Shown: piece by piece, positions 16,207 to 60,967 of the stretch
Layout of the letters: the number at the start of each line of letters is the position of its first letter
How positions within the stretch are numbered: the first letter of the stretch is position 1
Assembly (NCBI GenBank): GCA_017506865.1
Contig: JAFCMP010000124.1
Span: 1 to 64,000, forward strand
Direction: 5' to 3'
Length of the DNA: 64,000 bases
Source: Tribonema minus
Taxonomy: Eukaryota; Sar; Xanthophyceae; Tribonematales; Tribonemataceae
Translations under genes and position numbers: made by a program
The notes under the pieces: model-generated
Told to the model about the DNA's origin: nothing
The model's database searches: none
Seen by the model: only the letters and a program-made list of their open reading frames with translations

Positions 16207-16382
16207 AAGTACTCCTGACGTAGGGGAGGATCCCGAGATGCCATTTGGCGGCGACAGCGTTTGAGCGGTTGTCGTCACGACACTTTCAGACTGTCATACG
16301 ACATGTAGATTCCGTACAGCTAGATGCCAATCATCTGGGCTTTTTCGCGCCCTGAGCGAGAATTAATAAAAAGTACTCCTGA
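16207..16382 (+). mobile_element. 5'-truncated RLE-type LINE copy with a perfect 12-bp target-site duplication
   Basis: The 152-bp body (16219-16370) matches the 3' terminus of the large element ending at about 22178: it contains GCCATTTGGCGGCG, the GATGCCAATCATCTGGG block and the tail GCGAGAATTAATAAA. It is bracketed by AAGTACTCCTGA at 16207-16218 and 16371-16382, a perfect 12-bp duplication. This fixes the true 3' end of the element and shows that insertion is target-primed with severe 5' truncation. Confidence 0.9.
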
Positions 16383-16400
16383 GGCTGCGCCTGCTCCATT

Positions 16401-16443
16401 GGTACTTTTATTAATTTCGCTTCGCAAGGGGCGCGAAAAGCCC
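16401..16443 (-). mobile_element. Inverted fragment of the same LINE 3' terminus
   Basis: Read on the minus strand, this 43-bp stretch matches the last 40 bp of the element (GGGCTTTTCGCGCC through AATTAATAAAAGTAC) with a few differences. It faces the truncated copy ending at 16370, so the two form an imperfect inverted repeat with a spacer of about 30 bp. I see no clear target duplication. Confidence 0.7.
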
Positions 16444-16855
16444 TCTCTTTGGATGTGCACTCAATGCAACATTCCTTCTCCGAAGAGAGACTCAACCGCA
16501 AACAGGCTTCCCCCTCTTCACACTACCACCAACACCCCACAACCAAACCCTACTTAGGGTTGCCCAGCCGTGAGGCACACTTGTCCCGTCTTGAAAAAAA
16601 TGTATGCAGGCCTGGGTCGCCTTTGACAGCGCCCAGACTGAGGACCATGCTGACACGTCTGAATCACGCCTCTAGGCAAAATGATCACTGGGCACCAGGC
16701 ACTGGTGCTAAGGGTATCAATGCTGTTGCTACGAAGAGTCCAACCCAACCCCAACAAACCCCACCCAAACCCCGATCGGTCCCCACTATCATGCTGCACC
16801 AAAGTGCCTAAGCTACTGCCTCTACACGACCAGACCCACTTTGAGGCCTCCCGTT
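16444..16855. other. Unique spacer between LINE copies
   Basis: About 0.4 kb without a recognisable gene or repeat. It separates two 5'-truncated copies of the same retrotransposon. Confidence 0.4.
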
Positions 16856-17097
16856 GGTACATCTACATGGCGTACTCTGGCCGTGTCATGACACACATGG
16901 CAGAATCCAGGGGGGGGGGCACATGGAGGAGGACGTAGGGGAGGACCCCGAGATGCCATTTGGCGGCGGCGGCGTTTGAGTGGTTGTCGTTGCGACACTT
17001 TCAGACTGTCATACGACATGTAGATTCTTTACAGCTAGATGCCAATCATCTGGGCTTTTTCGCGCCCTGAGCGAGAATTAATACAAAGTACATCTAC
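16856..17097 (+). mobile_element. Second 5'-truncated LINE copy, directly upstream of the full-length element
   Basis: The body (about 16867-17087) begins at ATGGCGTACTCTGGCC, equivalent to about 21955 in the large element, and runs to the common 3' tail. GTACATCTAC occurs at 16857-16866 and again at 17088-17097, a 10-bp target duplication. Compared with the large copy it lacks a 6-bp insertion near CCATTT and differs at a few bases, so it is a separate insertion, not an assembly echo. Confidence 0.85.
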
Positions 17098-26600: not shown

Positions 26601-29600
26601 CTGCATTAACGCATGCGTGCAATCATGAGAATTTTGCCATAATGATCGTTGTAGATCGTTAGAAGCATGGTACAGTGACATTTCCACAGTGTTGGTGCCC
26701 GTATAGCTACCAGAGATGCCCCGTACTGCCATCATCGCACCAGTCGCGCGTAACGCGAGAAAATTTTTAACCGGTACCGGTACCAGTACTCAATAACTGG
26801 TACCAGCAGCTACCCGTACCAGTTTAACTGGTGCGCTGTGACGACCGGTACCAGTATACTGGTGAAACCGGTAAAATCTGGTCTGACCGGTTTTCACCTG
26901 TGATACCAGTTTTTTACTAGACTAAGTGATGCCAGGGTTTTCTCATATGCATCACATACGTAGTATACCGTGCGATCAGTACATACAACTACAAAGGCTT
27001 CGTTCGAGGATTCTAGGTTATGCAGCCGAATGGACCCAAGTGCATAGTGCGCAGCTCAAGGCGTTACCCACAGCATACTTGCGCAGTATCTGCTCCTGTG
27101 AGTGACACTCAAAGTGCACCCGTCACGATGCAAAGGCAGTCAGCAACATGTGTGCAGCATGCAGCCAGCAAAAGGATGGGCAGCATGCTCATATATCATT
27201 CTGCCTGCTGCCACCTGTTTCGACTTTCGCTCTGCAATTGGCACCCTTGCACTTGTGGATCAGCAAACAACCTCTGTCATATGTATTTATACCAGGTTTT
27301 CATGTTTAGCAGCTGAAGCTTGAGCCTTTCGTTGGCTGCGACAGCACAGCGCATCAGAAGCGGAAACAATCCGATCCGGAGTTGCGTTCCTCTGAATGAA
27401 TGCACCACGTCCCACGTCGGTTGTGGATGCTTATGCTTTACATCCAACCTGCTATCTCAGCCTGCAGAAGCTGCTTGTGCAGTCAGCAACATCAAACAGT
27501 CGCGCCTCCATCAATCGGAGACATTGCTACCTGTGTTTGTTTCTTGCCACATGGACCGCTTGCATGCCATGACTAGCCGAACTCATATGTCAAGAGCAGC
27601 ATCAGTAGGTCGACTCACGACCATATCTGCCAGTATACACCGTCCATACACCTGTCGTGTGTCCTGTACACATGTGCCTCCCCGACTAACTTCAAGGCAC
27701 GAAGAGAATAAACTCGCTGAAACGGTCTACTTGCATTTTAACTGGTGGCGCCGGTCATCAGCTACGGCATCGGTACGTGTTTACGGGTTGCCTCACGCGG
27801 CCAGTCACCCGTACCAGTTAGCGAGCGGCAACCGGTTACCGGTTACAACTGGTACAAAGACTGGTACGGGTACCGGTGCTACCAGTTAACGGGGCATCTC
27901 TGATAGCTACCATTCAACTCGCCTTCTGACACAGGGAAGCAAGGTCGCCACTGTTGCTGGCTGCCCAATCCCTCACACGGCACAGACTCGTACAAAAATA
28001 AAAGCCCATGGTCCACTTCAGCGTTGATGCATCAGCGGTGGCACTTGCGATTTGGAAATGGTCATGAAGGTGCGTAGTGAGGTAACAGCGTCAACAACCA
28101 TGCTGCAACAGGAAAAATTCCTGTTGTTTGGGATGAATGCAACCTGAGGTGCACAGCTGCCGTCATTGCAATGCCATGATGCATGTATGCAGACCATGTG
28201 TGTATCCGACAATAACAGAATAACAGTACTCAAAGAAAAGACAAAGTTGCCGGTTATGTTTGGTGGTCGCAGCTTACCATTTTGTAGGCCCACGTCTGAA
28301 CGTCCACGTTCGGCGCCACCCCCAGTTCTGGGGGACAGGCGGGCCCGTAGTCACAAATACAAGCTGGCACATCTGCGTTGCACGCCAGTGCGTCTGGTGC
28401 AGAGGAGTAAGGCGTAACATGCGCTGGGCTTAGCATTGGTAACAGACTGGCAGCATACGCAATACGCAATGGCAGGAAGAGAGTGCGGTTGGCTCGCACT
28501 TGTGTCAGAGTTTTGACGAAATTGTGAGCTGGGTCAGGTGATGTAGGGTAGGCGCATGTGATTGCAATCAGATACGCAATACGCAATGGCAGGAAGAGAG
28601 TGCGGTTGGCTCGCACTTGTGTCAGAGTTTTGACGAAATTATGAGCTGGGTCAGGTGATGTAGGGTAGGCGCATGTGATTGCAATCAGATTGCAGGCATG
28701 TACCAGTGCCAAGAGTAGCGCACAAGCTTTACATCAACAATTGGTGTGCGCACAGCTGTAACGTCAGCAACAAAGATACTGGAGTGAGTGAAGTTCAGAA
28801 TAAGCGTTAGGGTAAAACCTACCCTTTTCAAGTCGGCCACCCGACACTTGCATTCGAAATGACTGGGTTAGTACAAGTGAGAGCAGTGTTTGTGCTGCTT
28901 GAGCCGGCGTCAGTGCTGTAGTGTGTCACAGGTTAACGAAGTTTGGCTCCTTCATTTATTGCTGTTTGTTTTGTTGATGATTTGCGGCACATCGTTGTGA
29001 GTGCAATCACGAGCCTACACTCAGGGTTACGGATAGATCAAAGGAACTTAGAGACTCAATACTGTACTGGCGCATTCGCACAAGAGGCGGGCTTGAACTT
29101 GGTGCGAAACATACTGTGCCTTTATTTCAAAGCGTAACTACCTCATGTATGGGCGTGACCGCCTCTGCTGATCGAATAGCAAGGGTAAGTCAGCATCCCT
29201 GTGTCAAAACTGCCATAGGCGCGCACCACAGCACTGGATATGGGGTAACCTCAACACTTCCCCTTACCTCAACCCCAAAGCGATACCAGATCACTGCAGT
29301 TTGTTTGCAAGAGTGTATCACATACATGCTCCTTCTTCTACATGCGAGTTCGCAAGGCATGTAAATTACTGTGTGCACTTGTGCACAACGATATGATCAC
29401 TTACCCTTGAAGAAGGAGCCATGCAGCATCTCGTTGTCGACGTCATCGTTTACAGTCTGCACCAAGCACAAATGCGCAATGAGATCGTGATGAGGCAGGA
29501 TGGAAGATGCATTAGCTGGCACAGGTAGGCTGTACGTGCATGGAGTGCAGCGTGAAAAGTGCAGATGATTCATGAATAGTATGGGGTAACTGCCTACCCC

Positions 29601-32600
29601 TACCCTTCTGTATGCATCCATTTTGAGGATTAAGCAGCAGCCGTGACCAGAGTCTCATTCAACTGCTCGAAGTGGCTGTGCTGAGCAGCGGGTCACGTTA
29701 AGCTGCATTTGCTTTGATGCGGCCAGAAGACTCAGACATAGCATTCAAGCATGTACAAGTGCAACAATTCACTTTGGATTACACAGATAAAGTACAAATC
29801 AAGAGATCGTAGAGCGCTAGGTGACAAGGTGTGGTTAGCCGCAAGTGCCTGCCACCAGTAATCATGGTCACGGCTGCTGCAGTCAAACAGTGCCATCATA
29901 TCCAACGTGGTCAAAAGACTTCCGTGTGCAAGCTTTTTAGCGTTCGAGTCATGGGCGATCAGTATGGTAAGGTCTCAAGCTAGCCCATATACTTCATGTT
30001 TTGTCAACCCTCACTCTAACCATGCTGAAGGTCCGTGGGCTGAACCCTTGCGTTATCCCTTCAGCTAGGGGTCTCACCCCTAACCCTAATGACAGCGCAC
30101 ATCTCAGCTCATTTTGAGGCTGAGTCCTGTTCAGCACTGATGTTGTTCATGTTTTGCCTACTGGTCGTCGATGATCACTTCTAGCAACACATGCACTAGG
30201 CGCGAGTCTTGTATCTGCTTGGGTCCCTTCTTGTCCATCTCTGGCATGGTAATGAGCTATACGCTCTCACTAACCTAACCCGACAGGCCTTGCCAACAGT
30301 GCAACACAAGTTAGGGTAGGCTGCGTCTTAACCTCACCGCTCAGCCCGACCGTATTATGTCGCCACAACGCATCGTTCGATCTTTGAACAAACACTCAAC
30401 ACTTAAGTACATTCCCATCATCATGTACCTGCAAAAGTAACTCTCACCCTAACCCTAACCCTAATCACTCACCACATCCCCGTACTTGTTGGTGTACCTC
30501 TTGATGCGATGGTACATGGCCCACTGCAGCGAACCAGATGAGCCATCACGTGGCAAGTTCTGCGGCAGACATGGTGCATGAAAGAAGCTATAATGAATAA
30601 ACGCGTTAAGGCTGTAGATTTGAAGCTGAAGATTTGACCGCCACGAAATCATGCCCGCAGCAGCACACCCAATCTGCCGCAACACACTTAATCATGCAGT
30701 CACTAAAGTTATATACTGCGCATGCACATGAGCTCCGCAACTAGTCAACCTCATGCCCGCTGGGCATGGCATTTCTGAAAACTTCATGGGTGGCCTCAGC
30801 TTTAACCCTAAGTAGTCAACCCTCGTCCTGCGCCGGGCAGTGGCCGAGAGAATACCGGATGAAGGTCGGTACAGTTGTTCGTCGGCAGCGCTTGTTGTTG
30901 AAGTTGAACTTGCCTGTACCCAGTCCTGAACTTGCAACGGCACCTCCCAGAACACGGTGTGCCCACGGAGCTTCAGGTCCAGCTTGTCAACAGCAGCCAG
31001 TACCAGTTCGTCTGTGTGGGTGTACACGCCAAGCTCCGGCTCTGACTCCTTCCACTTCATGGACTGCTCTGCGGCTGCAGTGGCAAAGTTGGGCGAGCAG
31101 CAGAATCATGTTCATTTTGAGCGCTGCTGCCAGTTCCTTTGCAGACATGTGATGGCATATTCAACCATGAATACATGGTGGACACGTCTGAAACCCAGCT
31201 GGTTTAATGTACATCATGTGACAAGCGTACTGTGCACCATCTTCAGCCAACACCTAGCACACGTGGTGCAAGCATGCATCAAGCAAAGCACCTGTCCCTG
31301 TGTGGATGTGGGCAGGCAATGAAGTAAGGTAGAAATTGCGATTGCACTGTCACAGATGGCTATCAGGGCCCAACAGCCTGAGCTTGAGCAGATGTAAACT
31401 GTACCCTCAGGGCCACCAGCCTGGCTGCAAACCATACAATTGACAATGTACACGTAAACATTTTAAATCTAATCAGTATGACGACACACGGGAAATTCAG
31501 ATGGTCCCATTCAGGTGTACCAAAGGCTCATGAAACCTATATCTGAGTGCCAGGAGGCCCAATGCAGGGGCTGACGCTAACCCTACCCCTACCCCTAACC
31601 CTGATGCTGACCCTCATCTTAACCCGGTGACCCAACATTGAGTGCTTCAACATTTAAGCACATTCTAAATCGTGACATTGACGACACACACCTACACACT
31701 TATATATCTTTGGAAACATCTGGCGACAGACACATGGGGGAACTTACAAATGGTCCATTTCAAGTGCAGTGTCTAATGAAACCTGCATTTAGATGCCAGG
31801 AGCCCCAAAACAGAAACAGGGGCTAACCCTAACCCTGACTCTAACCCTGATGCTAACCCTGATCTCAACTCGGCGTGAAGTGCTTCAACACTCAAGCACA
31901 CACAAAAACGTGACCTTGTAATCCAGGGTGGTCCACGCTGCTTAGGGTTAGGATTAGGGTACCAGCGCCACGACGCGCTGCACTCGCGTTGTGAGCAAGA
32001 TCAATCTCTTCAAACACACCAAATGCACGATGTAGTTGGAGGATCTTATGTCACACAAAGCAGAAATGCTCTGCAGTAGATAGCAGGCGCTCGAGAGCAC
32101 GCCTTGCGCAAGTAGCGTCACTGATTACGATCCACTTGGCGCGCGTCACTCACTTGCGTAGTTGAAGTGCTTCTTGAAGAACTTGAGGCATTCAGGCTCG
32201 GTGGCACACTTGTCCCACATGGCTCCGCCAAATGGGTACTCATGCTTTTTCATGGTGATGTCAGCTGTGCAGTCAGGACCACCTCCGTAGTCGCCCAACT
32301 GCAACTGCACTGTGCGCTTGCGCACCTCATCTACTCGCCTCTGTGACACAGGCCTGGCAGAAGCATGGCAAGTAACAGCAGTAAATCAGCGTTACTAGTA
32401 GCTAGTAGTAGTTGGGGCTGCAAGTAAGGGGCCTGGCAGAAGCACCACAGTACGAGCATTGAAATAGAGTTGGTGATCAAAGTACAACTGGAGGTGACCT
32501 CATCAGTAGCAGAGGGCTTTTGGTGACACGCACTGCCAGGATGAGCGACATTCACCATGTCATAGCCGAAAATGAACTCCCTGGCAAGTACCTTTGGGCA

Positions 32601-44507: not shown

Positions 44508-47500
44508 CTTGCAACTTTTTTTCTTGCTGTACGTCATACGCTGGCTGTTCTGCCGCTACTTTGTGCAAATTACACCGGGAAGCATGCCATAATTGAGGAG
44601 CATGCCATCAGTGCCTTTCTACGTGTCCTCCTGGACCAGAAAACTGACTTGGACGAGCCACAAGTGCTGCAGATGCCAGCAGACGTCACTGTGCCCGCCT
44701 TCCAGGCTAGTGGAACGGCAGGCTTATCCGGCATTCTGATCAGGGAGTGCTGGCCCGCTTTTCGCGACTGCATTCTACGGGACAAGTGCGCCAACGTCGG
44801 TAAGCTGCTGTGGTCTTCTTCAAGCATGCCTGTTTTCTTTAAGAGGGTAAAATGTGCTGTGTATGTCGGTTTAAACCACCATTGAATTATGCAAGTTGTT
44901 AGAATATGAGATGGTCCAATACTTAGTGCATCCCCTAGGGGTAGGGCACGGTCCAGTTCTAAGGGTTTCTCCAGCAAGTTCTAGCAAGTTCTTGAAGGTT
45001 CTGGTGCCCCTACGGAACGGAAGGTTTCCGCTGGCCCTTGTTTTGTGTCAGCGATAATATCACTTCTTCTTCTTCTCCCAGCTCGAGGCGCCTGCGGGCG
45101 GCCTGCGGCCAGGGCATGGCTGCTCTCCTCTCTGATACTCTCTGCGCACCCCCGGTTTTCCAATAAGTGTATGGCATTCAGATTATGTTTGCCGTTGGTG
45201 AAGTCAAATTGTGAAGGCCATGTGTGGAATCGAAAGGAAGTTGCAACGTGCCATAGTTTTTTTGGGCAATGTCTTGGTGTCAATGTCATGTGTGGGATCG
45301 AAAAGTGAAGTTGAACCAGCTTTATGAGCATTACTACGGTCCAGTCTTCAGTGCAGGAATAGAAGGAAAGTTGAGCAGATTTGCAGCAGTTTTGAGGTAC
45401 AGTTGTCTTGCCCATATGCTCTTGGTGCACACTTGCTTTGCTCTTAGCCCTTGTCTGCTGGAACCATGGATGCCTGCCTGTTGCGGCAAATCAACTCTTG
45501 AAGTATGATCATATTCTACCACATCTCAATGACGTAACACACTCCACATGTCGTAGGTATCGCTCACTTGGCGGGTGCAGATGGACAGTGGCTTTTGACT
45601 GTATACATGTACATTCGCATACATCCATGCAGATTTTGTCGGCATAGCTACATTACTCACAGTGTTCCTGCTCCGTCATCTAATGCGACCCGTACTTGCC
45701 ATCGGTGTCTTGCATGCAACCGTCTGCAGTATCTGGAACTCCGGGCGTCGGCAAATCATGGTTCGCCTGGTGGTTCATGGCCTGCCTCTTGCGAGGGACA
45801 GAGGGACGGGCGCCCTTGCCTTTTGTGGTGTACCAGCGCCGGGCAAACCAGTCGTTTCTGTTGGGGCGCGATGGGCGCGTGTTCCGCGGCTCTGCGGGTG
45901 CATTTGCAGGTCAACTCACCCATCTTGGCTCCGATGCATGGTGCGTTGTTGCTAACCCTAACTCCAACCCTAACCCCTGGGTGCTTGGCATATATATGCG
46001 GTTCACTTTCTGGGTACTGTGACTTGAGCGGTTGGTCAACTCACCCAACTTGGCTTCGATGCATGGTTTTTCACTCAATGACTCATTGTGGTTCCTTGCA
46101 CTTCGGCTGCTTGGCATATGAGTGTGGTGCACTTTCTTGATACTATGACTTGAGCGGTTGGTCAACTCACCCAACTTGGCTCCGATGCATGGTGCGTCAT
46201 TCAATAGCTTATTGTGGTTTTCCTTGCACTGTGGCTGCTTGGCATAAATGTGTGGTGCGCTTTCTTGATTCTGTGACTTGGACGGTTGTTGTCGATGTTT
46301 TTTTTGTTCACAGCAGTGACTACCTAGTCAAATGCAAGCTATTTCTACTGCATGGTTTGCAGCTGGTGCAATCTGCCTGTCGCATCCCTTCTGGCAGTGG
46401 CCTGCGCTCATAACTACAGCGCTGCCTGTGCCGTTCTGATGTCGACATATCCATTACTTGCTCCTTGTCACAGGCTAATATTGGATGGGCTGCAGCCAGA
46501 AGACATTATTAGACATCATGTCCTGGTTATCTGTGCCTCAAGGCCCAGCGCCTACAAGGTAGGTTTCGTGAAAGTAGGCAATGCAGCCCCCTGCAATTCT
46601 TTGTGCAGCATTTGTAGCCATGGTATACATACAGATTTTAGGGGGAAGATAGGTGGGCTGATACCAGAGTATGCTTTGATCTCTGATGACGCAAAGCCCT
46701 TGCAACTATTATGCCTCTTAGTAGCTAGAGCAATTCAAGGAGTAAATGAGGTGGGCGAATCAGGAAAGTAACCTGCGATACATCTGACAGCTTCACAGCT
46801 TAGCGGGCGTGGCCAGCTAACTTCATTGTTGTAACTTGCTGTGCCATGATGCGCCTTATGGCATGTGTGAGTACCTGGTGAGACTTGTGCATTTGTATAT
46901 AGCTGCTTCTGTCACCGAAGTGCATGGCTGTCAGTGGCACATGATCACTCAGATGTCAGAGTCTTGAGCATCCAGGTGCTGTTGTGATCTTGTCGTTGAA
47001 GCTTTCAGCGATTGAGCCATCCGTGAACAAAGTTTAACGAAATGTGAAAGGTGTTGTTTGTCGCGCTGAGTAGTGCTGCTGTTGTGAGGACAACTTCTAA
47101 GCCAATCCAGGCTTACTGCCAGCAGACCTGAGCACAGTGGCATAGCAACCTCAATCATGTCTGGCAGCACACAACTTTGGGTTAGGGTCAGGGTTAGGGT
47201 GAATTATGAGTGTTATCAGTCGTGGATATGCTGGCTTTGACACAACACAACATGACTGCAGACTGACATAGCAATTCGGCATCTCGAGCTTCATGCACCG
47301 TACCTGCATTACATGAATCGTCAGCAATGCCAACATGTGCGCTGGCTGCCTGTATGGCAGGACTTTGTGGATGGGGGTGCGCATACACGCTTCATGCCCA
47401 ATGACTTCATGTCCAAATGGCAAATGTAGCAATTCAGCATCTACAGCCTCAGGCACCATACCCCTGCGTTTTCACAACTTGTTGGCAATGCCGACATATG

Positions 47501-50161: not shown

Positions 50162-53100
50162 CTATTTCGAGTTTTCCACGTGCAATTTGTGCAGTGCTGC
50201 GGCTGCGCCTTCAATGGTGCTGTCCTCTTTGCAGAAAGCAAACCGTGCCAGGTTGGCAGCCAGATGCTTGTGCTCGGGCTGCAGGCACACAACAGAATAC
50301 AGGCAGTGTAGCAAGTCACTGTAGTGCGGACCACCTTGTATTCAAATACCATGGTGCTTCAACAGTGAATTGAATTCTTCGGTGCACGCCATACATCATC
50401 ATGCTCGCGTGAGGCTTGAACCTTGAAGGCAAACTGGAGACGGTTGACCCAAGGCGTTGCGAGATGACATGTCAGGTGCCACTGTCAGTAGAGCTGGCAG
50501 ATACTCCACTTCAACTTGAAGTGAGCCCTCCGCGCATGATTTGCCTGTAGCCATGACAGCCATGGTTGACATATACAGCCTACGCCGTATGACCGTATAT
50601 ACCGTATGAGCGTACGTATGAGTCCCGCCAGAGCGAATATACGGACCGGTGCAGGCAAGCAGCTCGCGAGGGGGCAGCGCAGCCGGGATACAGAGCACAT
50701 ATGGTTGTACAATGCCTGCATTGAGCAATCATATACGACATGAAGCGCAGCTCATGCTCGACAAACGAAACCATCGCTCGGCAACCGCACACAGCCCTCT
50801 CACGGCGGCAAATGCTGCGGCAAATAAGGGGAAGTTCAACATGAAGTCAAATGTGAAGTTAAAGTTGAAGTTAGCGACAACCGTATATTGCGAACGTATG
50901 AGGTTCTCAGGGCGGTATACGTATATGACGAACGTATGACATAGAATCGACCGTATATGTCAACCCTGATAACAGCGTGCTTTGAAGTGGATTGGGATGT
51001 GACCGTGGAATGCTCTGGCAAAAGCAGTAGAATGTACTGGGCGCATTGCACAATCAGACTCATGAATTGCAAGTCTCTACCACAATGTCCGGCCACCTAC
51101 AGTGACAAATCTGCAAAGCACTTGCTACCAGCAGCGGTTGGTGCCACTTCAGATCAAATTTCCTAGTCACACTTGCCTTGTAAAATGTGCTGGGAGGGAT
51201 TGCGCACACGCCCTTCTCAATAGTCAGCCACCGGCACAGGGCCCAGTCGCGTGTCATGATAGGGCATGCTGGGGTTGTTTGTTGCATGTATTGCTCTGCG
51301 ATAGTGCCGTCAAAGCCCAGCACGCCGCTCGTGTCTGCCACCACAAATATGCCTGCGACAACAGAACAGGCAGGGTCAGCATGTGGGTTGGGGTTGAGCC
51401 AGGATTAGGGCAGGGCCGCTGTGTGGTGAGGTTAGGGTTAGAGTTGGGGTAGGGCTGGGGTTAGGGCAGAGCCGCGGCACAGTGAGCTGCTGCTGAGGCA
51501 GGAGTGGACAGTAGTAGTAAACAGCACAGTTTACTAGTACCTTGCCAAGAGTTGCCTGACGTTGCATAATATCATGATAGTTAGGGTTGGGGTGAGGGTT
51601 GAGGTTACGATTTTACCTTGCTGCATTCTGTGCAATGGAGCGCTCCAAGTGTGTACGCAACACTTAGGGGTTAGGGTTAGCGTTTGGTGAAACTCTAGAC
51701 TCCAGTGCGAACATAATGTCAGTCAAAAAAAGAGTTTGAACTTCGCACTCAAGACTGGATATCTTGCTTGCTGATGGCGGCAATTATAATCGGCCGATGG
51801 ACTGATGCACAATACGTGCAGTAGGAAACCCTTAGCTGAATCAGGTTCGATTGCAAGAAAAATGATCTGCTTGTGAACTGCAAGCGTACTGGTCATGAAC
51901 TGCAAAAGTGTTCGGTACTTCTGAGCATGGAGTTGTGACCATGCCTGTCAAGTACCCTGTAATGAAAACTACAACTTGCTGACAGCTTCAAAGAACGGCT
52001 GTGACCGTCAGTCAGACGAGTGGGAGGATGAAGCTCAGGTGTGTGAAATGCAATTGTTCTGTACTCCAAGCATGAAGTCGTGATGACGCCTGCAAAATAC
52101 CGTGTAATGTACATCAACTTGACGGCAGCTTCAAAACACAACTGTCACCGCCAGATCAGACAAGCGCAAAGATGCAGTTGAGCACTGCAGCAGTGAGCAG
52201 CAAGTCCGCCTACTGTGCGACCTTGTCCCACATCAGCTACAATCACTTACAATAGTGATCTGTGCTGATGGCAATGCTCTAGAGAAGTAACAATCAGAAC
52301 CCACCTCCTTCTGGCACAATGGGCACTATGTTGGCATCCCTCAGTGCCACCACGAGTCGGTCCCTCTTACGCTGGTATCGATCCACTAGGTAGGCATAGT
52401 AGCTGGCATGGCCTTCAAATGGTTCCTCCGCCTGCGTACACACAGCAGGGCAGGCAGAGAAGACAAGTGTGAGGCACCTGAACAAACTTCAACCTTACCA
52501 AAATTCAACCTGTCATCGCATCAGTGACTCCCCAGGCTTGACGTTTGTATGTCAGACATATTAAAGGTTAGGATAAGCCCATGACCCAAAACCATGGCTG
52601 TACCCTCACCGAAACCCAGAGATATGATTGTGCGATTCGGTGGTCTCACCCATAGTGAACCACTCTGAACTTCCAGTCTATGACTTGGTCACTGCCTTCA
52701 AATCTCCGTACCACACAGTTGACATTTCACCGGGAGCACCCTCAAGCACCTAGTGGGACAGTTGAGGGTTTGCCCTAAATGAGCCTAAGCGCAACACGCT
52801 GTCCCGCGATGTCCCGCGAAGCGAGCCTTCCACAGGTGACAAGCAGAAAGCGCGGAGAAGTGCCTGTGCTGAGCAGCGTAGCGACAGGGCTGCAACCAGG
52901 CACTGTTGACTATTTGCTGAGCGCTACGACCCTGAGACTGACCCTTATATCCTGGTCCTTGAGGGCCTAAGCTCGGATCTCAACCCTCATAAACCCTGCC
53001 AGAGACACTGACCCTGATATTGACCCTAACCTTGGCTTGTCAACACAACACAGCATTGGGAAACGGCATTAACGTAGCGGGGCTATGTCTCACCTGCTTC

Positions 53101-56100
53101 AAGACCTCCGCCACAGCTTGCTGCAGCACGGTGGGCACGCAGTACTGCACCCACTGATTCACGTTCATGACCTGTAGCACCAGGGCCTCGGGCCCAATCA
53201 CCCACCCCACCTTCCAGCCCGTGGTGCTGAAGGTCTTGCCAGCGCTGCTTACCGTCAATGTGCGGTCCTGCAGTGGTGGCAGCGACCAGGGTTGCGAAAA
53301 GCAGCAAGGCTCAGGAATTGAAAACTGTGGCAGTGCTCACAACAGAGGGTTAAGCTGTCAGTGTGCGGTCCTGTGACGGAAGCAGTGGCAACGCTTACCT
53401 GTATTGAAGCGTAAAGCTGCAAGTAGTGAGAGTGCCGTCAATGTGCGGTCCTGCAGCAGCGTCAGGGTTAGCATTAGGGTTAACTAACCCTAACTACACT
53501 GCACAAAGTGACCTGATGCTGACAGAACAGCAGCCCAGCTAGAGAGCCTTGACACTGGTGCTTAGCACTGACAACAGCGACAGCGCTCACGCTTGGCGAC
53601 AGCGATGGTGTGAGGTACGCTTGGCGACAGCGATGGTGTGAGGTGCTCAGCATTGAAAACGGTGCTCACAGTGGACAGCAGCAATGCGCTCAGCATCGTG
53701 GACAGTGAAAGCGTTCAGCATGAGAACAGTGACAGTCCTCACAAGATTGCCTGCGCTGCTCACTCTCGGCATGCAGTTCTGCGAACATGAGTGCGCAAAG
53801 GCGAGAAGCAGGCATCATGACGGTCGCCAACTGGCACCATGTGACAGAGTATGCCTTAAAACATAATATTACAGGTTTGTTTCTTTTGCTGGCGCTCAAG
53901 CTTGACACTGTAGGTGATGCCGATCTCGCATGCGCTGGTACACCTGACAACATGGTACGTTCATTTTCCTGCTGCTGGCGCTCAAGCTTGAGGCTGTAGG
54001 CAGACATGCGCTCTTCGCTCTGAGCGAACCATGGTCAAGCATTGCAAGCATCTGTTCTGACGGACTGCTCAACTAACCTAACCCTCACGCTAACCCTAAG
54101 CACTGAAAAGCACCGTGACATGCTCTCAGATTCAATTCAAATCGTCACCGTAACCCTAACCCTCACTTCAACTGTAGACCTAACCCTACCGCTGGTCACT
54201 CACCCACATGCCATCCAGGCTGGCAGCGTAAACGTGCTTGTTGCCGTCAAATATGATGCGCTCGTAAACCTGTCACACCATGCACGATACAAACAAAACG
54301 TCACTGCAACTACCAAGCATCACATCTGCGATCATGCAGCAAGATGAGGAATGAAGGTGTGCAGCAATCTAGGGCAGTTCAACTTGAAGTTGCAAGCTGC
54401 AACACGCACATGATCTCAAAGTTCAACTACCCGTTCATTTTGCCTTTTAACCTGCGTCACAATGAACTTCAACAGACATAACTAGAGTGAGTTCAACACT
54501 GATGCAAGAGGATAGGTATAGGTTTCACAGCAGAGCGTCGCCGTGGTACTGTTGACGTCTAGCCAGACAGCTGTGTTCGCTTTTCCTCCCCAAGCAGTAA
54601 TGTATTTGCTACCTAACCTCAAGCTCAATGCCCCAATGCTGCGAGTGCACTCAATGTCCATAGGGTGTCGGAGGTTTATCATCAGGGCAGAACACCGCTA
54701 CCGTGTCATACACAATAGTTCTATGTGGCAATGTGAGTCTACTGTGCAAATCGGTTCGAAAAGTGCGCCTTGTCACAGTGGCAGCCTACGTAACTGCTTG
54801 GTGGGGACTCAAGTCATCTCATACATTGTGCATCACCCTCGCAAAGCTATTCTGATCGGAAGCACACAGTGTGTGTAGAGTCACACGGTGTGCAACACAT
54901 AGCAGCACACTGCAATTTCACGCACACTAGCAAGGTTGGCAGAAGGCCTTGCCTCATCAGCGTGCATAAAGCTTCAGCTGTTTGTCAGTGATGAGTAAAA
55001 CCTTAATGTGATTTGTGACGACTAAGCACAACCGAAACGGTCTGTCCCAGTGCTACGGCTCACACCGGCGGCAGTTCATGAGTGCCAATAGGTTTAGGGT
55101 TAGGGTTAGGGTTAGCGCCATCTCTGCACCGATCGCGCGTAGCGCGATAAAATGTTTGACAAGTACGCGTACGAGTATTCCAAAACTTGTAGCTGTGGCT
55201 ACCCGTACAAGTTTAACTGGTGAGCTGTGCCAACCGGTACCCGTTAACTTGCTGCACCGGTTATTACTGGTTCAACAAGTTTTCACCAGCTGCACCAGTT
55301 ATTTAGAAGGCCTGCCAGTATTCATGTCATGCAAACTTCATAGTATGAACATGTACCCACTCAAAACTGGCATGGGTGTGAAGGCTGCAAGAGGTAGGCA
55401 CGCATTTGCACGCGAATGTCACAAAAGTGTAATTTGCATGATATGCATGGCGTGCGGCACACACGTAACAGCAGCAGCATGCCGGCACAGCTTGTCCTCT
55501 ACAAACAACTCACGAAGTGAACGCATCAAGCTGAAAGCCGCGTGCTGTGCAGCACTGCTTGTTGTCGGCACCTGTGTTCTGCAGGCAGCCGAGCGTGCTT
55601 GCGTCGCTACACATACTTCCACAAACTCTAACCTTACCCTGCTCAAAGCTAGAAGGCCTTTTCGAGCTGCTCAACAGTAAGGGAGTGGCAAACATCTCTC
55701 GCCTCGACCGATCATTACCGTGATGTTTCCTCCGCAAAACTATCGAGCACCGACAGAATAAACCGGAACGGGCATTTAACTTGTACCGCAAGTTATCAGC
55801 TGCGGGACCGATGGGTGTTTACGCGTTGCCTCCCACGGCGAGTTACACATACCGGTTAACGCGTGCGGCGCAGCGGGCCACCGGTTACGGGTTAGAACCG
55901 GTACAAAAACTTGTACTCGGTACCGGTGCAACAAGTTAACGCGCCATCTCTGCAATAGACACTTCAATATGCAGCATAATGATCTTGCACTGTGGAGCGG
56001 CAGGCAGGCGCCTTGACGGCACAGTCCACGAAACCGAAACAGCAAGGAAACTAACATAGATCTCCGACCACATCGCCATGTCAAATGTGCGCAAGCGCAC

Positions 56101-59100
56101 AACTTCAGGTGCTGCGTTACAGCTTGCAAGCGAGAAACATGCTCAACAGGTGGTGACTCACCTCATAGCTACTTCAACTGGTGGTGACTCACCTCATCAG
56201 TGACCAGTATCACCCCTTCGTGTTTCTTGACTACGTTGCACAGAGCCTCCAGCTCCTCATTCGTAAACACCTTGCCTGTTGGGTTCTACGACAATTGAAC
56301 CAGCAGGGGCATGCATCAGTCGCACAACAGGACCAGGGATGGAATTTGGATGAGCATTAGGGTCGCATGCTGGTAATGCAGTCTGCTTAGGGTTAAGGTT
56401 AGGTTAAATCTTCTGCTAGTTAGGTTAAATCTATCTGCAAGCGCCGGTGGAAGTGTGATGTGTGCTTCCTACAGTGCGCTTTGCGCATTGACGTGCACAA
56501 ATGCCTTCCAAGAAAATTCTCTGGCGCAGCGCATGTCATATACGTGTTGCAGTATCAATCTCAAAAGTTAGGGTTAGGTTGAGTTCAGGTTTAGGGTTAG
56601 ATTCGCCGGCGCTGCCACTGTCGGCACCAGCTGCGCAGTGAGGCTCATGTGCCTATGCGTACGCCGAATCGAAATCATGCAGCACGCGCGGCATGAAAAT
56701 CTTGCACGGCTGTCCTGCCTGCAGTCACGCTTGCAGCCGAAAGCTGCTGAGGGTGCAGGGTTACTTTTGCAGCTGGTCTTGATAACATTCAGTAGCACTC
56801 AAATTAGGGGGGGGGGGGGGTTGAGCAACACATTCCTGGTCTTGTTCGTGAAGGCCTCCTCGAACTCTATCAAACAAAATTGAGTAGCCTTAGGCCATGC
56901 TGCGGGGCGCACTTGCAGGCAAGTTTCAAAACTGGTGCTCTTGGTGCTCTTGCTGGCATCCGATTTCAGTCAGGGTTGGAGATTGGGTTCAGTCTCAAAC
57001 GAGGTTTGTTGAGTGCAACTTACTCGTGATTCTCCGCAAATTCCTCCACATACAACCCATATCAATCCTAACCCTAGGGTTGGGTCACCTCAAAGCGAGC
57101 AGGCCTATTCGCAGCTGGCACGTCTGAATACACTGAGGGACAGGGTTAGAGTTCCGTCTCACATGCGGGTTGTTGAGCAACACTGCTCGCGTCTTGTTCG
57201 TGAAGGCAGCCTCAAACTCGGTCACGTCAAACCCCCAGCCCCCCTTGTCATCCGGCTTGAGCGGCACGAATGTGCACTTCCCTCCCGCCATCTGTAGAGC
57301 AACGCCATCACCAAATGCATGTAATAACATGCATGTAATAACATCAGTCACAATGATGGTGGACAAACTGTAGGGTGACAGCTCGCGTGCGCAACTATAA
57401 CATGTGCTTGCCCTGGTGGGCAATGAAAGGCACTCTGACGAGCATACGTGTGAGGGACATGAAAGAAGCATGCAGGCAATAATGGTGGACAAACCGTACT
57501 GTGACAGTTTGCGGGCGCAACTATCTAAACAGAAGAACACGGTGTGTGAGGCACCCAGATTTTAAGGTGTGCTGAGCATTGGGGCAGTGTCAGCAGACTG
57601 GGTCGTATGCAAAAATCATGTGCACTTGCTAGTGTCAACGGGTCTGTCAGTGTGGCCTGCTGCCTCAGGATTAGGGTTAGATGTGAGCATACCATCATAT
57701 CACATCTACATGCTGAACACCTAAATCATTACCTGGGGCAATTGGGGTTAAATGTCAGCATCGCACTCGGAGTGAGGGTGCACCCTGAGGGTGGGCGTTC
57801 CTGACCGTTCATGATTTGACCCTGACCCTAACCCTAACCCTAACACTAACCCTAAAAAATTTCATGCTCCTGCTGGAAATGTTGAGATTGCTACTCCCAC
57901 ATGAACACATGCAGGCAATTGGGAATACTATGTCCAATGGCTTCTGTCCTGCTGGCAGTGGGTCACGGGCAAGAGTCGCCACAATAAAGCATTACCAACC
58001 CGTTCACCGTACAACACTCATCATTGGAACTCAAGCAGTAAAGTCAAGGTAGGATGCTGCCCTTGCTGTACGAGAAAACACACTCAAGAGAGTTGATTGC
58101 TGGGAGTCATTGACTGATCATTGGAGCTGACCTGTACTTTAGGAGCGCACACATCACCTTGGATCATTCATCCATTTGATTCATTCGTCCATTTATTCAT
58201 TAAAGTCATTTATTCATTCATTCATTGACGCACTGAGCACTGGCATTTACCTGTACTTGAGGAGCGAACACATCATCTAAAAAAGAATTCATTCATGTGA
58301 GTCATTCATTCATCCATGTGTTCATTCACATACTGGGCACTGGCGCTCACCTGTACTTGAGAAGCGTACACATCATCCCAAGTCATTCATGCATTCAACT
58401 ACGCAATTCATTCATTGATTCATTCATTCACGTACTGAGCACTGGCGCTCACCTGTACTTGAGGAGCGTACACATCAAAGGCTGGCTCAAACACCACCAC
58501 CTGCACGCAATCAAAATCAACAACAACATGTGCATATGTGGCAGTTGCATCAGCACCGAGTATGTGTCTGCATTAACAGCAACTGCCAAAGCATCTCTTA
58601 CCCTCATGACATTTGCTGCATATGCAACTGTTGTAATTTACCACCAACACTGTGGCAGTGTGTTACATTGCATGTAAGATTGTAGAGCTCCCAGCGTTGT
58701 ATTGTGTCATGTCATCACGACAGCAGTGACCTGCCACACTGATGCTTCAGCTTGCCCAAAGAAAGTATTTGTGCTGGCACAGCACACCACCAGCTCAATG
58801 TAGGTTCAATACTGCCGCAACTGCGACAGTCGTCAGCTTATTGTACTTAGGGTTTGGGTTAGGGTTGCATCTGGAGACCGCACACCCTGTACAGCATTAC
58901 CTAGTGAGTTTAGCGAGAATCTGCCTCTATCAGTACGCTTCAAAGTGGGTTGCTTGTATGCACCAGAGGCATAAGAGAAACAGACCTGACCATCAGGATG
59001 GCAATATGAATCGAAAGCTTCATGCAAATATTTACGCGGGCCAGAAAAAGCGAGAATCGGTACAATATCATTGTTCTACCCCCAACCCTAACCCAAACAC

Positions 59101-60967
59101 GATTGTCTCATCAACCTTTTATGGCCGAGCAGAATTGTCTCTGTTGTCTGAGCTTGTTGTAATTCACAACATCACAAAAGACAATAGGCACAGATATGCA
59201 TACAAGATGAATGGCTACAGGCACTGTGCGTGTTGCGTGCTCGCCAGTATACATAGTACTTCTGAAAGACATGTTGTTGCCATGCAAAAATACTGATATG
59301 CTGTATCCCGCCACGGAAGCTGCCACTACACCTTGTGCAGAACTCGCAGTGTTCAGGGTATGCTATGCATATAGAGTATGTACGTGTCGGAGCATATCAC
59401 AGTAACATGATCATTGCCGTTTGCACGCTTGGCGGTTACAGCAGTTACACTTGCCGGTAGACAGACTACAATACATGCTCTTCTAGCGGCACACGACTGG
59501 CGTCGGCTTTCTTTTGCACTGTTCACCTTGATGTCTACCTCTGCGGGTGTGGAGCAGAGCAGCAGCTCTCTGCGCTGCAACGGTACGTATGTATGCATAC
59601 CCCGCAGTGATGGACAACATGTTTATGCAATGTACGTTTGATGATATCGCACCCAGCGCGAAAACTGCCACTTTGCCTTGCACAGAACTTGTCGCGTTCA
59701 GGGTACGCCATTCGTGTAGGGTATGTAGGGTATGTGCATATACCCCTGCCATAGCCTCACCTCGTCGCCATCGCTCAGCAGCGCCTGCCAGATGGCAAAC
59801 AGCCCCTCTGTGCACCCCATGCTCACTGTGACCTCCGTCATACCGTTGATGTCCCGCCCCATGAGCTTAGAGTACTGCTCTGCGAGCACCTGTGGGATGA
59901 CATGAAGCAGCAGGTCGCATGTATTGGTGTTGTACACTGTTAAACACAGCATCTTCGCCAGCATGGCAAACGCGGAGGCGTGTATATATATACTTCTATG
60001 CAATATTATTCAGGCTGGGCATGATTCCGCAGTGATCACGTCAAACACAACGTCACATTCACACCTCTCTATGAGTACACACAGTCCCTCTCAACAGATG
60101 TGAGCATAGCAGGCCATGCCGGTCATGCTATTGTCAACCTCAGAGGTCATGCCGTCAACCTGATAGTCATGTCGGCACAGGCAGCGGCTATGAAGTCTAG
60201 CGCGCTGTGGCGGGTAGGTTTGTCGTCATGTGAGAGCAGCGCGCAACAAACATTCCTGCAATCCATCCACACATCACATGAGCACCACCTTCACAAGAGT
60301 CCGCAGCAACAACTATTGCAAGCAAGACATGCCCCCACCAGATAACAGTACCTGCAACAGATACTGTTACAGGTATGCCATGCATTTTGCTCAAACTTGC
60401 ACAGCATGTCACTGGTACCTACCTGTACCAGAGCGGGGTGCCCTGCGGACCTTGCGTACTGATTGAAGTTCTCCTGAACTGCCTTTGCCACCGCCTGCTT
60501 GCAGAAGTCCGGGCAAGGCCAGTCAGGGAAGCCCTGGCCCAGGTTGAAAGCGCCGTGCTGTACCGCCAGCGGTGTGAACTCAGCCCACACTGTGGGGTCC
60601 ATCAGCCCACGCATTCTGTGGCATCAAGGACACAGATGAATCATGAGCAGCGCAGGCAATCATGTCAAATGTTGAAGTTCATGTATGTTGTTGAAAAGGA
60701 GAAAAGGAGATGAAGCTGCTTCCACTCGTCATTGTGCGTGCAGAACCAACGTTGAAGCCACGCCAACCTCCTTGTTGGTTCTTTAGCTCAACTCATACCG
60801 CATGCGTCTGACACCTAGGCTGGCTGCAGATGTTGTTTAATCGGACTGCTGATGTCGCTGCTGCTCGCGATGCGTGATACAAGAGCGATGGCGATTTTGA
60901 GAGCATCAATCAAGCAATTGTGGCTCGCTTACCTGGGAGGCGCGCTGTGAGTCGTAAAGGCAGACAT
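50162..60967 (-). CDS. KYAT: Kynurenine-type aminotransferase / cysteine-S-conjugate beta-lyase, 11 exons
   Basis: PLP-dependent class I/II aminotransferase; family members transaminate kynurenine, glutamine or methionine with 2-oxo acids. Exons: 60967-60933, 60615-60423, 59889-59761, 58500-58453, 57291-57163, 56285-56193, 54269-54204, 53267-53094, 52431-52305, 51352-51177, 50278-50162; in phase throughout, 428 residues, the normal family length. Landmarks: FNLGQGFPDWP, NQYARSAGHP, SMGCTEGLFA, NNPHNPTGKVF (Asn179 contacts PLP), VTDEVYE (Asp208, Tyr211), the Schiff-base Lys242 in SSAGKTFSTTGWKVGW, and PIVPEGGIFVVAD. The start ATG (MSAFTTHSAPP) has a good context (accATGT) and no obvious organelle signal, so cytosolic location is likely. 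Intron 10 has a GC donor, TACAAG|GCAAGT. About 88% of the locus is intron; introns contain a hAT-like relic, a MITE and duplicated exon edges. Confidence 0.95.
50564..50965. mobile_element. MITE with GGTTGACATATAC termini
   Basis: The left end GGTTGACATATACAG (50564-50578) is matched on the other strand by GGTTGACATATACGG (50951-50965). CCGTATGA and CGTATATA motifs crowd the first 60 and last 90 bp. No target duplication is evident. It is located in aminotransferase intron 10. The superfamily cannot be told. Confidence 0.6.
53250..53470. repeat. Three copies of the acceptor and 5' edge of aminotransferase exon 8
   Basis: GTCAATGTGCGGTCCTGCAG (minus-strand exon start and acceptor) occurs at 53254-53273 (true), as GTCAGTGTGCGGTCCTGTGA at about 53357-53376, and again exactly at about 53436-53455. 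The copies lie upstream in the intron, in transcript terms before the real acceptor. The third copy keeps the AG. Confidence 0.85.
55086..55958. mobile_element. hAT-like element relic, sister of 26711-27902, with telomeric repeats at its left end
   Basis: From about 55115 to 55952 it aligns with both termini of the element at 26711-27902: GCACC..TCGCGCGTA.CGCGA.AAAAT near the left, and GTACCGGTGC.AC.AGTTAACG..GCATCTCTG-like sequence at the right. The right end ends CGCGCCATCTCTG. The left inverted repeat is absent; instead TTTAGGGTTAGGGTTAGGG (about 55093-55115) abuts the body. CAATAG occurs just outside both ends (55086-55091, 55953-55958), perhaps the remains of the duplication. It lies in aminotransferase intron 6. 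Confidence 0.75.
56148..56200. repeat. Duplicated donor edge of aminotransferase exon 6
   Basis: GGTGGTGACTCACCTCAT occurs at about 56149-56166 and at 56181-56198. The second holds the true exon end and donor (minus strand GATGAG|GTGAGTCACC). The first is a copy 32 bp further into the intron, with its own intact GT. Confidence 0.85.
58121..58478. repeat. Four tandem copies of the 3' half of aminotransferase exon 4 with its donor, plus (TTCA)n
   Basis: CACTGGCGCTCACCTGTACTTGAGGAGCGTACACATCA-like units occur at 58441-58478 (true exon edge), 58339-58375, 58237-58277 and, more diverged, 58121-58158. They are separated by ATTCATTCATTC-type microsatellite. On the minus strand each reads GTGTACGCTCCTCAAGTACAG followed by gtgagc, gtgagc, gtaaat and gtcagc respectively. 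Confidence 0.92.

Follow-up and report, generated by a model that had tools for sequence, protein, structure and literature searches.

Exon-edge-straddling tandem duplications as a likely route of intron growth in Tribonema minus

Intron 4 of a kynurenine-aminotransferase-like (KAT) gene in Tribonema minus carries an array whose units, in register with one another, repeat the end of exon 4 together with its splice donor, and the annotated donor is the exon-proximal one. Comparable copies recur at donor and acceptor edges of exons in other genes. We consider it highly probable that the KAT array arose by tandem duplication straddling the exon–intron junction, followed by amplification within the existing intron, with splicing staying at the outermost site. 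Based on sequence comparison, we propose that introns of this organism likely grow by such exon-edge duplications, which leave behind intact-looking splice sites that splicing would need to ignore, and that the same process has likely enlarged a good share of the introns in the genome.

The 64,000 nucleotides analysed (hereafter the window) open on a 620-bp run of the telomere repeat CCCTAA and include the KAT gene, whose exons are joined at GT-AG sites and once at GC-AG. Residues 13-428 of the gene model are identical to a deposited T. minus protein (416/416), and the protein matches kynurenine aminotransferases in the PDB, with 1yiy and 3fvs as relatives. The GC-AG intron is intron 10, which starts with GC (AAG/GCAAGT) at 51177/51176. 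A second aminotransferase, with 46% identity over the query, is encoded elsewhere (L008, contig C19) in a single open frame of 446 aa. The features of the KAT locus on which the argument rests are as follows.

50162..60967, minus strand: KAT gene, 11 coding exons, 428 aa model
58453..58500, minus strand: true exon 4, 48 bp, phase 0, sequence VVVFEPAFDVYAPQVQ
58447..58452, minus strand: true donor of intron 4, GTGAGC, in the context CAG/GTGAGC
57292..58452, minus strand: intron 4, 1161 bp
58351..58375, minus strand: copy 2 of the exon-4 end, then GTGAGC at 58350-58345 (CAG/GTGAGC at 58351/58350)
58251..58275, minus strand: copy 3 of the exon-4 end, then GTAAAT at 58250-58245 (CAG/GTAAAT at 58251/58250)
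58132..58156, minus strand: copy 4 of the exon-4 end, then GTCAGC at 58131-58126 (CAG/GTCAGC at 58132/58131)

Intron 4 contains three extra copies of a segment that joins the exon-4 end to the donor and the first part of the intron; in all three, the shared exon part is the final 25 nt, or about half the exon. The four units stand in register at 58434-58477, 58332-58375, 58232-58275 and 58113-58156, with starts 102, 100 and 119 bp apart going outward from exon 4 and with a TTCA microsatellite between them; the copy donors lie 102, 202 and 321 nt downstream of the true donor. This agrees with the preliminary description, in which the 3′ half of exon 4 and its donor were present four times at roughly 100-bp spacing, separated by TTCA repeats, with the three extra copies inside the downstream intron. 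Its ladder of decoy 5′ splice sites is likewise present as intact-looking copy donors, since GT is kept in all three. Its count of two perfect donors is a little generous, as one copy has a hexamer identical to the true one and the others read GTAAAT and GTCAGC.

Tandem Repeats Finder reports a single array at 58206-58477 (period 102, 2.7 copies, 78% matches), and its head-to-tail copies of one unit identify it as a tandem repeat of the minisatellite type. When the exon-4 junction was used as a query against its own intron, the E values of the three copies were 4e-18, 1e-17 and 1e-9. In the reversed control, none of the 11 KAT exons had a match within the window at E 0.05, and forward queries with exons 2, 3, 7 and 8 gave one weak match each elsewhere in the window (E 0.002-0.044).

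Identity of the copies to the true unit falls with distance across the junction core (94.5, 89.1 and 86.4%), whereas whole units show no grading (76, 77 and 65%), so that the graded divergence noted earlier applies to the core and not to the units as a whole. Copy-to-copy identities are 0.67, 0.60 and 0.65, and each copy resembles the true unit at least as much as it resembles any other copy, which fits a true edge held by selection while the copies drift. As donors, the copies score 13.4, 6.7 and 9.6, compared with 13.4 for the true donor and 6.0 for the weakest of 30 real donors. The annotated donor of intron 4 is the exon-proximal one on the basis of the deposited gene model and protein conservation; when translation is continued in frame from exon 4 into the intron, TGA is reached at codon eleven, and use of a copy donor would therefore truncate the protein.

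A genome search for dispersed or allelic copies of the array, which skips simple repeats and very common words, returned six matches besides the locus itself, at 78-88% identity and all in the TTCA-rich part, and the exact pattern of donor plus TTCA had zero matches in the genome. An introner or transposable element was rejected as the source, since this search found no near-identical copies dispersed at other loci.

Exon edges are also copied in three further introns of the KAT gene, the doubled exon-6 donor not being part of the blastn counts of junction-spanning copies given below.

56815..56872, minus strand: copy of the exon-5 end in intron 5, 77.6% identity, E 2.6e-9
56959-57013, minus strand: second, weaker junction-spanning exon-5 piece, GT lost, E 4e-4
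53435..53465, minus strand: copy of the exon-8 acceptor and exon head in intron 7, E 6e-5
begins near 53370: shorter exon-8 acceptor-side copy in intron 7, found by eye
56145..56196, minus strand: GAGGTGAGTCACCACC twice at 31-nt spacing, the exon-6 donor and its copy in intron 6, found by eye

To evaluate recurrence, proteasome genes were located by a Pfam-family search of the genome and 20 regions were taken, blind to repeats. We analysed the 39 of the 45 proteasome matches that lie in these regions, the six left out being five long single-frame matches (C3, C7, C6, C14, C41) and one on C223; stops are present in 3 of the 39. An edge copy outside the exon and within 2.5 kb was found for 17 of these 39 exon matches at E 1e-5 (45 copies), against 0/39 in the reversed control, and at E 1e-3 without the exon-overlap filter there were 57 matches against 0 reversed. 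In the Ras family, edge copies accompany 10/25 exon matches (reversed control 2/25), a share that is biased because two of the ten Ras loci (C77, C446) were already known to hold duplicate matches when the ten were chosen. Printed alignments show copies that continue through the junction on both sides, including four acceptor-side copies at L032 and three donor-side copies at L018, and the pattern is present on many contigs. By eye, a Ras-family exon head with its acceptor occurs at least four times at about 1660-2270 of L043 (minus strand), two of these exon-head copies being matched by the Pfam model itself. At the Rab5 locus, the Pfam model took two edge copies as extra Ras segments. Over 100 nt, the true Rab5 donor shares 98% identity with a copy lying 151 nt further downstream, so that sequence strength alone can hardly explain donor choice.

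Splice junctions were sought for 30 exon pairs by phase, Pfam continuity and splice scores, of which 26 were solved and 20 kept; 4 pairs stayed unsolved and 6 were set aside because their junctions were weak or ambiguous, and these losses include two pairs with copy-rich exons, one of L023 and that of L016. Together with the 10 KAT introns these make a set of 30 introns, with junctions placed partly by heuristics, that covers one genome, two gene families and KAT, itself the gene of the original observation. Counting as junction-spanning any copy with at least 12 nt of exon and at least 6 nt of intron at E 1e-3, we found such copies in 10/30 introns (proteasome 5/10, Ras 2/10, KAT 3/10), both of the Ras introns belonging to the Rab5 gene. 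The 29 copies fall on the donor side at 5/30 junctions and on the acceptor side at 7/30, and acceptor-side copies are thus as common as donor-side ones. All 29 come from 60 own-intron tests, compared with 0 for reversed sequence, 1 for the minus strand and 4 across the 1548 tests that covered all other introns. With the low-complexity filter off and any match counted, the controls gave 17 matches for reversed sequence, 12 for the minus strand and 1 in another intron. Introns that hold spanning copies exceed the others in length (median 1117 bp, n=10, versus 702 bp, n=20; p=0.01); the Fisher tests made together with this comparison and the site scores pool non-independent copies.

The exon breakpoint is the same across the array in KAT intron 4 (25, 25, 25 nt), at the L015 donor (88, 88) and among the spanning copies of L020 (46, 46, 46), which points to one founding duplication followed by amplification. 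Breakpoints differ at the L015 acceptor (73, 59 and 82 nt of exon) and in Rab5 (113, 120, 50, 44, 42, 49, 18, 13), and several events are therefore likely in those arrays.

Local repeats cover 19.5% of the 28,271 intron bases, compared, at a slightly stricter cut-off, with 5.5% of the window and a mean of 12.3% in the 20 proteasome regions. Self-comparison yielded 244 repeat pairs against 15 reversed, and the controls for repeat pairs in the intron set gave 2 reversed and 11 on the minus strand, all 11 in L018. Coverage across the junction is about even (0.14-0.23) without a peak and drops to 0.06 within the exon, at a depth of 75-100 nt behind donors and 50-75 nt behind acceptors, a profile compatible with units some 100-150 nt long that fall regardless of the splice site. 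Given this evenness, targeting of the duplications to splice sites looks unlikely, also for the AG/GT-containing segment named in the preliminary description. Junctions are crossed by 11 of 22 repeat families, where about 4 would be expected for 100-bp units placed at random; with introns at today's length, the excess has p=0.001 for 100-bp units and p=0.02 for 150 bp, and may be explained if ancestral introns were shorter or if pairs that contain exon decay more slowly.

Divergence between the copies and their true units differs on the two sides of the junction, with 167/1498 mismatches in exon parts (0.111) and 287/1361 in intron parts (0.211), a ratio of 0.53. If the copies drift freely and the true exon stays nearly fixed, exon pairs accumulate changes along one lineage and intron pairs along two, for an expected ratio of about one half; the match with this expectation fits copies that would be unconstrained, with only the true exon held. 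Single copies scatter, and several Rab5 copies have an exon part that is more diverged than the intron part. Within exon parts, third codon positions have the highest mismatch rate (0.145 versus 0.078 and 0.111), as expected from silent change in the true exon and equally from once-constrained copies. Splice dinucleotides are kept in 27/29 copies (GT 15/17, AG 12/12), slightly above the roughly 23/29 predicted from exon-part divergence. Given this slight excess some copies may have a role, and among the 29 there is no sign that decoy sites are purged.

Taken together, these results show the KAT array as head-to-tail units of about 100 bp, each of which contains the 25-nt end of exon 4 with the donor and the first part of intron 4. 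The founding event was most likely one tandem duplication straddling the exon–intron junction, and the founding unit would then have been amplified inside the intron, which would gain one unit per duplication event. Since the true exon edge is the outermost unit, exon-proximal splicing would leave the protein unchanged and extra units would cost little. Splicing would then be decided by position (exon definition, with the first donor or the last acceptor taken) and not by how strong a site is. We infer the direction and the age of the duplications along with these steps.

Function of the extra sites is improbable in our view, whether as alternative splice sites, giving isoforms that are targeted by NMD or 40 aa longer, or as decoys that retain the intron. 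Such function would accord with the strength of the copies, as 14/17 copied donors and 11/12 copied acceptors score at least as high as the weakest real site, and one inner donor at L018 would give an open in-frame exon of +120 nt. However, use of 28/29 copies would bring a stop codon, the divergence fits unconstrained copies, and deposited or transcript proteins of three genes skip the inner sites. For Rab5, with 8 donor copies in the intron, the deposited T. minus protein follows exon-proximal splicing (160/160), as does, for L018 with arrays at both ends, the protein of a Trinity-assembled transcript (P0241; 149/149, identity complete). A ladder of recursive splicing, in which each CAG/GT copy acts as a zero-length exon and the intron is removed stepwise, is a far more doubtful reading still. 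AG abuts GT in 13/17 donor-side copies and five Rab5 copies score at least 6.6 as acceptors, but the KAT copies reach only 2.3, 3.9 and 3.3, no higher than the weakest of 30 real acceptors (3.9), and acceptor-side arrays do not have the AG/GT form.

The copies might instead be remnants of whole-exon tandem duplication and once have been mutually exclusive exons, tandem exon duplication being a recognised origin of alternative exons in the accessible text of PMC9013439. We regard this as very improbable, given that in the printed arrays each copy has a single exon edge and a single splice site, its breakpoint falling within the exon (25/48 nt in KAT), that repeat coverage dies away about 100 nt into the exon, and that 28/29 spanning copies lead to a stop, unlike a whole exon duplicated with both splice sites and kept open. 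Tandem repeats are liable to mis-assembly, and the 98% identical Rab5 pair could be artefactual; as an account of the pattern, an assembly artefact has a next to negligible chance, because the KAT units differ from the true unit by 23-35% and the pattern is found on many contigs. Duplication straddling the junction, followed by amplification, is the reading we retain.

We read this process as intron growth and not as intron birth. The AGGT tandem-duplication model (Rogers 1989; Hellsten 2011; Gao and Lynch 2009) is an established route to introns in the accessible parts of PMC4974935 and PMC3443670. As in that model, as described there, the duplicated segment contains AG/GT (CAG/GT in 4/4 KAT units) and splice sites are doubled; unlike it, no new intron results, the coding sequence stays the same and the duplicated segment includes intron. 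A new intron of the AGGT type between copies was rejected because all KAT copies lie in one intron and the deposited protein joins exon 4 to exon 5. The same placement, the unchanged coding sequence and the annotated exon-proximal donor speak against intron birth, which the preliminary description had mentioned as a proposed outcome of such duplications, and its own suggestion, that copying of an exon edge in tandem is expanding an existing intron, is supported. The acceptor-side copies, the further cases in KAT and the recurrence in other genes had escaped that description.

In the potato RdRp gene, an intron was gained by tandem duplication across an intron-exon boundary (Ma, Lan and Niu 2016, PMC4974935). 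Within what the accessible text of that study describes, the duplication likewise crosses one splice junction and leaves exon-derived sequence in an intron, and the case concerns a new intron, one duplication and one gene, whereas in T. minus the intron was already there and becomes longer, its units have multiplied, donor and acceptor junctions alike take part, and the pattern extends to several genes. Regional tandem duplication has also produced novel intron positions in Drosophila, according to the portion of PMC2891723 available; there, too, duplicated exonic sequence becomes intronic, whereas T. minus shows no sign of a moved position. Among the literature matches listed, drawn from openly available papers, there was no title or abstract opening on recurrent exon-edge arrays in the introns of one genome. 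Duplication across a boundary was thus already known, and what is new is that an existing intron grows, recurrently, at both intron ends and in several genes.

Intronic minisatellites have head-to-tail, diverged units of about 100 bp. The T. minus arrays are alike in all of these respects, and unlike in that the first unit is a live exon edge under selection and that each unit contains a splice site.

The window contains other repeats. Interstitial telomere-type repeats (TTAGGG, at least 10 nt) number 31 in positions 701-64000 compared with 1 reversed, among them 55094-55115, 57825-57844 and 58856-58866; 15 lie in the KAT gene and 0 in its exons. There are 73 in L015-L044, compared with 2 in the reversed control, and they occur in 12/30 introns; they may mark break repair by telomerase. 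The octamer AACTTCAA (or TTGAAGTT) occurs 147 times against 16.8 expected in the 309,830 bases of the window and L015-L044. As drivers of breakpoints, the AACTTCAA family and telomere-type octamers show no clear association, with 17/543 and 15/543 repeat ends close to a motif against 12.6 and 11.7 for shifted positions. A tandem array at 45909-46288 has a period of about 126 and units with a donor-like GGGTGAGTTGACC stretch on the minus strand, and its frames have no Pfam match. At 28455-28690 lies an apparently recent 117-bp tandem duplication (99% identity) with, by eye, 2 bp of microhomology at its ends, and at 16217-17091 a direct repeat of 160 bp (94% identity, 715 bp apart). No tie to an exon was found for these arrays near 46, 28 and 16 kb, where 9/10 of the frames given are without a Pfam match. 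A reading frame at 30695-31105 (minus strand) matches glycosyl hydrolase family 10.

Intron lengthening is usually attributed to transposons. In T. minus, growth by splice-junction duplication can be read unit by unit in 5/10 introns of unselected genes and in 10/30 overall. The chances seem about even that junction-straddling tandem duplication is a main engine of intron growth in this organism, in which case its introns would be stacked records of exon edges whose intact duplicate donors and acceptors are rejected by position alone. Such edge arrays are a natural test of splice-site choice, and gene predictors are confronted by the same puzzle of site choice in genomes of this kind.
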